DNA of 64,000 bases from Xenophilus sp. AP218F (lineage in GTDB: Bacteria; Pseudomonadota; Gammaproteobacteria; Burkholderiales; Chromobacteriaceae), in assembly GCA_002213445.1 (NCBI GenBank), contig NJIE01000009.1, positions 62,001 to 126,000 on the forward strand, read 5' to 3'. Within the stretch, counting starts at the first letter, position 1; each line of letters opens with the position of its first letter. The notes beneath the pieces are model-generated. The model was not told where the DNA came from, made no database searches, and saw nothing but the letters and a program-made list of their open reading frames with translations. The position numbers were made by a program, and so were the translations under genes. This document shows positions 32,432-36,455 of this stretch, one piece after another.

Positions 32432-33016
32432 ATGCTAAAACTCAATCTTGGCTGCGGCTACGACAAGCGCCCCGGCTTCATCAATGTAGATAGCGAAGCG
32501 GCTTGCCAGCCGGACCAGGTAGTCGATCTCGAGACCTTTCCCTGGCCATGGGCGGACAATTCGGTGAGCGAGATCCTGCTTAGCCACGTGCTTGAACACC
32601 TTGGCGCCGACACAAAAACCTATTTGTCCATCATCAAAGAGCTATACCGGGTCTGCGCTCCAGACGCTTGCGTCACCATCATCGTGCCCCACCCTCGCAG
32701 CGACAATTACCTGGCAGACCCCACTCATGTCCGTCCCATTACCGCCATGGGATTGCACATGTTCAATCAGGAGCTGAATCGGCAAAGCATGGCCGAGGGG
32801 CACGCCAGCACGCCCCTGGGCATTTACCTGGGGGTGGACTGGGTGATGGAGTCATCCGATCTGAAAATACTGGAACCCTGGGCCAGCCGCTTCAATAGCG
32901 GCCAGCTGCAGGAAGGGGACATCGCCATGGCGGTGCAAAACTTTTATAACGTGATCGGCGACTGCACATTCATGATGCGCATCCGCAAACCCGCCTTCTC
33001 TGCGGCAAGCGGCTAA
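32432..33016 (+). CDS. class I SAM-dependent methyltransferase-like protein
   Basis: The 194-residue protein opens with a motif I-like LNLGCGYDKRPGFINVD and has a motif resembling the post-motif region of methyltransferases, SEILLSHVLEHLG. Such proteins often act on sugars or lipids near surface polysaccharide loci, but this one is isolated and the substrate is unknown. Part of the sequence is less GC-rich than its neighbours, perhaps a sign of transfer. No clear ribosome site precedes the ATG, so the start is uncertain. Confidence 0.7.
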   Translation: MLKLNLGCGYDKRPGFINVDSEAACQPDQVVDLETFPWPWADNSVSEILLSHVLEHLGADTKTYLSIIKELYRVCAPDACVTIIVPHPRSDNYLADPTHVRPITAMGLHMFNQELNRQSMAEGHASTPLGIYLGVDWVMESSDLKILEPWASRFNSGQLQEGDIAMAVQNFYNVIGDCTFMMRIRKPAFSAASG

Positions 33017-34479: not shown

Positions 34480-34569
34480 GTCTCTCTCCTTGACGCGGGC
34501 AGGCCGCGCGAACGCCGCGGCGTCGGCCTGCTTGCGCGAACATCGTGAATTGTCTTGCGATGGGAACGG

Positions 34570-34588
34570 AAAACGGCCGCAGCGGCCG
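34570..34588 (-). terminator. terminator-like hairpin between tnaC and tnaA
   Basis: On the minus strand CGGCCG-CTG-CGGCCG is followed by TTTTCC and begins nine bases after the tnaC stop codon. A ribosome stalled at the end of tnaC would cover or block it, a different layout from the Rho-dependent site in E. coli. Function is inferred. Confidence 0.55.
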
Positions 34589-34596
34589 CGAGAGAG

Positions 34597-34704
34597 TCAG
34601 GCGCGGGGGAAGTCGCAGGACAGGATGATGTCCAGAGTGTACCAATGCAGGCGCGTCGCTTCGCGAAAGGTCAGCGCCGATTGCTGCTTTGCCGACGTAT
34701 TCAT
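34597..34704 (-). CDS. tnaC: TnaC-like leader peptide
   Basis: The frame from the ATG at 34704 encodes 35 residues and ends LHWYTLDIILSCDFPRA before a TGA stop, 117 bases before tnaA. W21, D25 and P33 reproduce exactly the W12-x3-D16-x7-P24 spacing of E. coli TnaC, the residues needed for tryptophan-dependent ribosome arrest. Two residues follow the proline, as in Proteus TnaC. AGGTG lies six bases before the ATG; another ATG lies two codons earlier (34710). By analogy, free tryptophan inhibits release at the end of tnaC and lets transcription pass into tnaA. Confidence 0.85.
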   Translation of the reverse strand: MNTSAKQQSALTFREATRLHWYTLDIILSCDFPRA

Positions 34705-34868
34705 TTGCATCACCTATTCAGCGAGTCAAAAGCCATGCCTTGCGGCGGGTTCAGCTTACGCCTGTTTCCCTCGCGCGTAACGCCACTGTTACAAAACTCC
34801 CACACAATCCGGCCTTGCCATTCGCATTTTTCTTGCTGGATACAATAAACATTAAGCATCTGACGCGC

Positions 34869-34897
34869 AGAATATTGATCATAAATGATCAATTCAA
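34869..34897 (-). promoter_or_regulatory. putative tna promoter with palindrome in the spacer
   Basis: On the minus strand TTGAAT (34892-34897) and TATTCT (34869-34874) are 17 bases apart, a fair sigma-70 pair for tnaC-tnaA. The spacer is filled by the perfect palindrome TTGATCATAAATGATCAA (34875-34892), whose half-sites resemble FNR ends but at the wrong spacing. A repressor site or a shared site with the divergent peptide transporter gene is possible. The rest of the 374-base gap (34705-35078) holds an imperfectly placed GTAAC-N6-GTTAC repeat (34777-34792) and a weak plus-strand -10, CATAAT, near 34938. Confidence 0.45.

Positions 34898-35078: not shown

Positions 35079-36455
<1,377 letters not shown>

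Follow-up and report, generated by a model that had tools for sequence, protein, structure and literature searches.

TnaC is a standard model of metabolite-dependent ribosome arrest. The structural study cited here worked on the 24-residue E. coli peptide and on its R23F variant, and it describes uL22 Lys90 as functionally important and Phe at TnaC position 23 as common in homologues, with R23F cutting the tryptophan needed approximately 30-fold (PMC8429421). In a second study, I19L matches the wild type, and the TnaC of Proteus vulgaris stalls the ribosome at the codon after the proline, Lys33 (PMC3902921). Literature searches, judged by titles and abstract beginnings, listed nothing on TnaC in Chromobacterium or on a tnaC that sequesters the tnaA Shine-Dalgarno (SD) sequence; the TnaC alignments of Cruz-Vera 2008 and 2009 may include such species, and in the excerpt of PMC8537960 tnaC serves merely as an exclusion term.

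The window considered here, the whole 64,000-nucleotide stretch of DNA that was analysed, contains a tryptophanase gene preceded by a short open reading frame (ORF). The reading favoured below, with reasonable though not strong confidence, is that this ORF belongs to the TnaC arrest leaders, Proteus-like in that further residues stand between Pro and the stop, and that its tryptophan-dependent arrest would free the tnaA SD sequence (translational attenuation).

The leader ORF and its surroundings

The earlier note had proposed a 35-codon frame with a TGA stop and a ribosome site at 34597..34704, and all three features are confirmed, with AGGTG upstream of the ATG (Table 1). The coordinates also hold, with the addition of the strand, which had been left unstated and is minus; a plus-strand reading of 34597-34704 was rejected, as the peptide is not encoded there and the reverse complement gives the 35 codons and TGA. 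Alternative starts are possible at an in-frame GTG and an in-frame ATG, 9 and 6 nt further upstream. The claimed W-x3-D-x7-P spacing was compared with the K-12 tnaC of NC_000913, which encodes MNILHICVTSKWFNIDNKIVDHRP, and W21, D25 and P33 match it exactly. Pro33 is followed by Arg-Ala and then the stop, with no stop directly behind the proline.

Table 1. Features of the tnaC-tnaA region, in window coordinates
Feature	Position	Strand	Description	Basis
tnaA, tryptophanase, 461 aa	33094..34479	minus	gene behind leader	NCBIfam
tnaC-like leader ORF	34704..34597	minus	35 codons + TGA, MNTSAKQQSALTFREATRLHWYTLDIILSCDFPRA	reverse complement read directly
Leader Shine-Dalgarno AGGTG	34711..34715	minus	8 nt between AGG and ATG	direct reading
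Arrest block W21..P33, WYTLDIILSCDFP	34606..34644	minus	conserved	pN/pS
W21 codon	34644-34642	minus		
D25 codon	34632-34630	minus		
L28 codon	34623-34621	minus		
F32-P33 codons	34611-34606	minus		
Predicted anti-Shine-Dalgarno arm	34590..34601	minus	leader's last bases, TGA, CTCTCTC; pairs with 34488-34476	predicted fold
GC-rich hairpin GCGGCCGCTGCGGCCGT	34573..34589	minus	7-pair stem, then TTTCC; terminator-like	
tnaA Shine-Dalgarno AGGAGAGA	34483..34490	minus	predicted sequestered without ribosome at leader end	

When the 600 nt upstream in the window are dinucleotide-shuffled, a frame of this kind arises by chance in 22 of 20000 cases. Among 108 tnaA loci for which 600 nt of upstream sequence exist, with some genomes counted twice (as named and unnamed records), it is present in 79, as compared to 50 of 21600 shuffles. 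Neither the peptide nor the leader has a match in Pfam, NCBIfam or Rfam, with nothing for the leader in Rfam up to E=1. The Pfam model PF08053 (Tna_leader, 24 positions) also leaves the window peptide unmatched, and a scan with it gave scores above cut-off in none of the 19 genus genomes and in one of 14 control genomes; this miss arises because the model was built on the short TnaC form, and does not reflect a functional feature. Judged by its sequence, the window peptide is a member of the TnaC leader kind.

The downstream gene scores 722 bits against TIGR02617, under the cut-off of 825.8, and 713 bits against PRK13238.1, over the cut-off of 285. No tnaB permease gene was seen after tnaA, the next likely gene in the ORF list being 32432-33016 on the opposite strand. 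Divergent to the leader is a plus-strand gene (35079-36455) with a minus-strand counterpart at 538-1944 in the Chromobacterium subtsugae locus L045; both presumably resemble POT-type peptide transporters. An 18-nt palindrome, TTGATCATTTATGATCAA, is located upstream of the leader at 34875-34892, and other palindromes are found near relatives' leaders (TTGAAGATTGTATTCAA in L010, TTGAATATTGTATTCAA in L014 and TTACATTGTAA in several). These palindromes are possible regulator sites.

Distribution and conservation of the leader

Within the genus Chromobacterium, tnaA is present in 12 of 19 genomes, and the leader is found in all 12, the window's own included, and in none of the seven genomes that lack tnaA. 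A leader profile, for which seven of 19 rows were drawn from the searched genus genomes themselves, matches all 12 at E 1.2e-9 or better and gives nothing better than E 0.48 in the other seven. A second TnaC in the window's genome was considered and rejected, the next profile match (E=0.19) not being credible.

The wider tnaA locus survey kept 80 of 291 found, and in a 112-locus set that includes some genomes as both named and unnamed records, 80 loci have the motif W...D.......P ahead of tnaA. These include all 29 named loci (L031-L058 and L065) from Chromobacterium, Aquitalea, Vogesella, Crenobacter and near kin, as well as loci from Aeromonas, several Enterobacteriaceae, Dickeya, Photobacterium and four Burkholderiaceae metagenome-assembled genomes (MAGs). 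The genera around Chromobacterium are taken here to be one family (Chromobacteriaceae), a placement that is partly assumed, and it includes L051, L052 and L054, whose record titles read Neisseriaceae or beta proteobacterium. The earlier note had named a lack of W, D and P conservation among close relatives as refuting its reading; this outcome did not occur, since W, D and P are kept in the 12 genus genomes and the 29 named loci alike. The leader of one Chromobacterium genome (L014) is strongly diverged, ending in WYTLDVVLNCDFPHPTRC, with a 74-nt spacer in which GTTCT behind the leader stop matches AGAAC before tnaA.

The 112-locus set gave no exact motif for its Mesorhizobium, Endozoicomonadaceae, Xenorhabdus, Parashewanella and Halioglobus loci, for L028 (65% identity) or for homologues at 51% identity or less; in the set, L071 and L093 have under 70 nt upstream, and the start of L111 is uncertain. 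In ten loci at approximately 73-75% identity (L074, L078, L080-L084, L089, L099 and L097), from Mesorhizobium and a record titled Mycobacterium sp. KBS0706, no short ORF with W...[DNE] (10-60 aa; ATG, GTG or TTG start) was found within 400 nt upstream of tnaA, which suggests that these tnaA genes are without such a leader.

A comparison of substitution rates divides the leader in two. In the 13 codons of the W..P block, pS is 0.534 and pN 0.039 across 11 Chromobacterium loci (ratio 0.074), as compared to 0.327 and 0.259 (ratio 0.79) for the 12 codons that precede W, aligned ungapped in the same loci. The corresponding ratios in Aquitalea, Vogesella and kin are 0.12 and 1.07. On this codon-level evidence, what is conserved in the leader is its amino-acid sequence, and only within the C-terminal block.

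The residues that make up this block were counted over 67 distinct W-to-stop strings rather than over loci, because genomes are duplicated in the locus set. In this count the invariance of W and D follows from the W...D filter itself, and the share with proline at D+8 (47 of 67) is biased upward because Pro was also in the filter for 80 leaders. Leu or Ile occupies D+3 in 61 of 67; the window residue is L28, at the position of E. coli I19. In the Pro-bearing strings, from which E. coli is absent, Phe precedes Pro in 47 of 47, Asp precedes that Phe in 42 of 47, Arg or His follows Pro in 42 of 47, and a stop directly follows Pro in none. With Phe before and Arg or His after the proline as the rule, the HRP-stop of E. 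coli is the outlier. The description of the window leader as a diverged arrest peptide is supported, with two additions: the residues before W vary freely, and at the C-terminus it is E. coli that is unusual. W, D and P had been singled out as the key positions and are conserved; F32 and R/H34, which went unmentioned, are conserved as well. Lys90 of uL22 is kept in this genome, as compared by eye, and L28, F32, P33 and R34 of the window peptide fit what is reported on TnaC residues.

The remaining 20 of 67 distinct strings have no Pro at D+8, although two have one at D+7 instead. These leaders (L124-L128, L133, L143-L150, L154, L155, L161, L163, L164, L166, L168, L092 and L100; examples are WYVIDESRSAFLLHF, WYNLDFRLAHSRFLFSQ, WYNIDHQLTCRLSSE and WYNLDYTLSLLSKESSLH, each followed by the stop) keep W-x3-D, with Leu at D+3 in 15 of 20, and may stall through another C-terminal solution.

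Predicted pairing of the tnaA ribosome-binding site

In the predicted mRNA fold of the window, a helix that the earlier note does not mention joins the tnaC stop and CTCTCTC to GAGAGAG and the tnaA start codon, and the seven CUCUCUC/GAGAGAG pairs have predicted probabilities of 0.99-1.0 at 25-37 C. The stalled state was modelled by holding the ribosome footprint single-stranded; the footprint is assumed to reach 15 nt upstream and 16 nt downstream of the first P-site base. With the ribosome at Pro33, the predicted cost of opening the tnaA SD drops from 13.1 to 3.2 kcal/mol (4.3 stalled when longer upstream context is folded), a relief of 9.9 kcal/mol that is reached by none of 30 spacer shuffles and none of 40 local shuffles. 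The local shuffle, which affects only the 16 nt after the leader stop and keeps their pyrimidine content, lowers the relief to 0.6 kcal/mol. The cost depends on the P-site codon, at 10.2-13.1 kcal/mol for codons 1-29, 9.4-9.0 for 30-31 and 2.3-4.3 for 32-36, and also on the 3' edge of the footprint, at 7.4 for +10 and 4.7-4.1 for +12 to +18 as compared to 12.1 when free. The mean unpaired probability of the SD in the ensemble is 0.23 free and only 0.49 stalled, so the predicted release is partial. The model thus predicts that the tnaA SD is sequestered by the end of tnaC and freed by a stalled ribosome.

Once identical spacers were removed, 70 of 80 leaders were retained for a wider comparison. 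Their mean relief is 3.9 kcal/mol, as compared to 0.5 in spacer shuffles; at most one of 30 shuffles reaches the observed value in 38 of 70 leaders, and 32 miss that mark. Under the local shuffle the contrast is 3.9 to 1.6 kcal/mol for all 70 (at most two of 40 shuffles reach the observed relief in 28) and 4.8 to 1.0 for the 38 family loci (25 of 38; Wilcoxon 2.5e-7, uncorrected for relatedness). In Chromobacterium, relief is at least 3.9 kcal/mol in 10 of 12 loci and nine of 12 pass the 1-of-30 mark; the relief test failed in L016 (1.0) and L019 (0.6). None of the four Burkholderiaceae MAGs (L072, L073, L075 and L077) passes the 1-of-30 mark, and the predicted relief in E. coli K-12 is 0.0. 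In a second set, which contains duplicate genomes (e.g. L079 and L124) and one row, L162, that took the wrong frame (WRAPD), at most one of 20 shuffles reaches the observed relief in 13 of 41 rows.

The position dependence of the relief is broad. With the P site at least 18 nt upstream of the Pro codon the mean does not exceed 0.25 kcal/mol; it reaches 2.4 at -6 nt and 3.4-3.5 between 0 and +12 nt, and hypothetical footprints at impossible P sites further downstream still give 2.6-3.0 at +18 to +30 and 1.2-1.6 at +36 to +48. Because these downstream footprints relieve nearly as much, the relief marks the end of tnaC and the start of the spacer, not one codon.

Covariation was assessed by comparing cognate with swapped arms. 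Permutations did as well in three of 20000 cases for 33 family arm pairs and in none of 20000 for 63 arm pairs of all taxa; the result weakens when 17 lineages are compared (551 of 50000), and with 12 representatives, roughly one for each genus, significance is lost (14286 of 50000). Much of the arm complementarity is generic CUCC/GGAG, and the covariation support is modest.

Some loci place the complementary bases elsewhere. In Aeromonas (L060, L062-L064, L066-L070), the DFPH codons (e.g. GACTTTCCTCACCGC) are largely complementary to the tnaA ribosome site (CGGTGAGGAGTC). In most Aeromonas loci the SD complement comes from these codons and not from post-stop bases, and in most the local shuffle leaves the mean relief unlowered; the anti-SD could thus be supplied by codons that the stalled ribosome covers. 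In two Burkholderiaceae MAGs (L073 and L075), mid-leader codons pair with the tnaA SD region, as with GTCGTCCTGA against TCAGGACGAC in L075.

Proposed mechanism and comparison with described systems

With plentiful free tryptophan, W21, D25 and L28 of the nascent peptide would form a Trp pocket with the exit tunnel, and Phe32-Pro33 would silence the peptidyl transferase centre, halting the ribosome with Pro33 in the P site and Arg34, rather than a stop codon, in the A site. The 3' edge of the halted ribosome would cover the tnaC stop and CTCTCTC, which could then not pair with the tnaA SD, so that tnaA would be translated. At low tryptophan, the ribosome would finish and leave, the helix would shut the tnaA start, and the untranslated C-rich spacer may also invite Rho. 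Tryptophan-dependent arrest of the window leader is very probable; that SD release is the main output, which depends on the fold model, has somewhat better than even standing.

The best-surviving alternative, though an unlikely one, is that the output is the classical E. coli one alone, with the stalled ribosome hiding a rut site and the SD pairing a by-product of a pyrimidine-rich rut region. Such an output is reported for E. coli and P. vulgaris (PMC3902921), and in the 38 family loci the first 50 nt after the stop have C at 0.27-0.50 and G at 0.16-0.27, a C-rich, G-poor spacer start that would suit Rho-dependent termination. However, the 16-nt shuffle, despite keeping the pyrimidines, removes most of the relief both in the family loci and in the window, which indicates that base order matters, and E. 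coli shows no such SD relief. Plain translational coupling, in which any ribosome terminating at the tnaC stop opens the helix with no Trp sensing, would agree with the low predicted opening cost at P-site codons 34-36, as a terminating ribosome would open the helix briefly, but leaves unexplained why W, D, L, F and P are conserved as amino acids with free synonymous change, and likewise the wider pattern; it is highly improbable. Equally little weight can be given to attenuation via the intrinsic-terminator-like hairpin directly after the leader: its seven-pair stem followed by TTTCC has the appropriate form, but the T run is short, and one common rule finds a hairpin in only one of 12 Chromobacterium spacers (the window's) and nine of 38 family spacers. 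This hairpin also begins beyond the assumed 3' edge of the footprint (34592) and would therefore stay intact with a ribosome at Pro33; it was rejected as a regulated element on both counts, and probably is not one. Least probable of all is a chance ORF or a simple leader without arrest function, for which the lack of database matches could be cited, against its rarity in shuffles, its co-occurrence with tnaA in the genus and the low pN/pS of the W..P block.

Arrest-driven SD release thus remains the preferred reading, and a broader form of it is slightly favoured: the TnaC sensor of Chromobacterium and its family would be wired to translation initiation, as it would be through different routes in Aeromonas and some enterobacteria. 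The sensor would then have two outputs, with Rho antitermination operating in E. coli and SD release in these bacteria, and its stalling domain would be replaceable as well, since several gammaproteobacterial lineages keep W-x3-D and mostly the D+3 Leu without the proline. If the SD-release reading is true, one nascent-chain sensor has two outputs in different bacteria; this output would be the new part, as the leader itself belongs to a known kind. The common sampled form is D-F-P-(R/H) with residues after the proline, and carries Phe at the position where R23F raises the sensitivity of the E. coli peptide about 30-fold, and the natural variants offer test pieces for separating sensor from stalling residues. 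In Chromobacterium, tryptophan also feeds violacein, and a tnaC switch would therefore sit at a metabolic branch point.

The window leader shares with E. coli K-12 TnaC the W-x3-D-x7-P spacing, a hydrophobic residue at D+3 (I19; here L28), a short ORF before tnaA and uL22 Lys90. It differs in length (35 residues rather than 24), in having Phe and not Arg before Pro, in its shorter spacer to tnaA (117 nt as compared to 220 nt), in its predicted SD relief (9.9 as compared to 0.0) and in lacking a visible tnaB where E. coli has tnaCAB. E. coli TnaC stops at Pro, whereas residues follow it here, and arrest should therefore block elongation rather than termination. In erm-type leaders, arrest frees an SD by the same principle, with an antibiotic being sensed. 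SecM-secA is similar in that arrest of a ribosome on the leader keeps the downstream SD out of secondary structure, and the review from which this is taken sets SD occlusion by SecM beside TnaC (PMC10501990); SecM senses secretion, whereas a TnaC-type leader should sense an amino acid. Proteus vulgaris TnaC shares the longer leader, the corresponding residues (W20, D24, L27 and P32) and residues after the proline, and differs in its Lys A-site residue, for which the window is predicted to have Arg, and in the Rho-based output described for it in PMC3902921.
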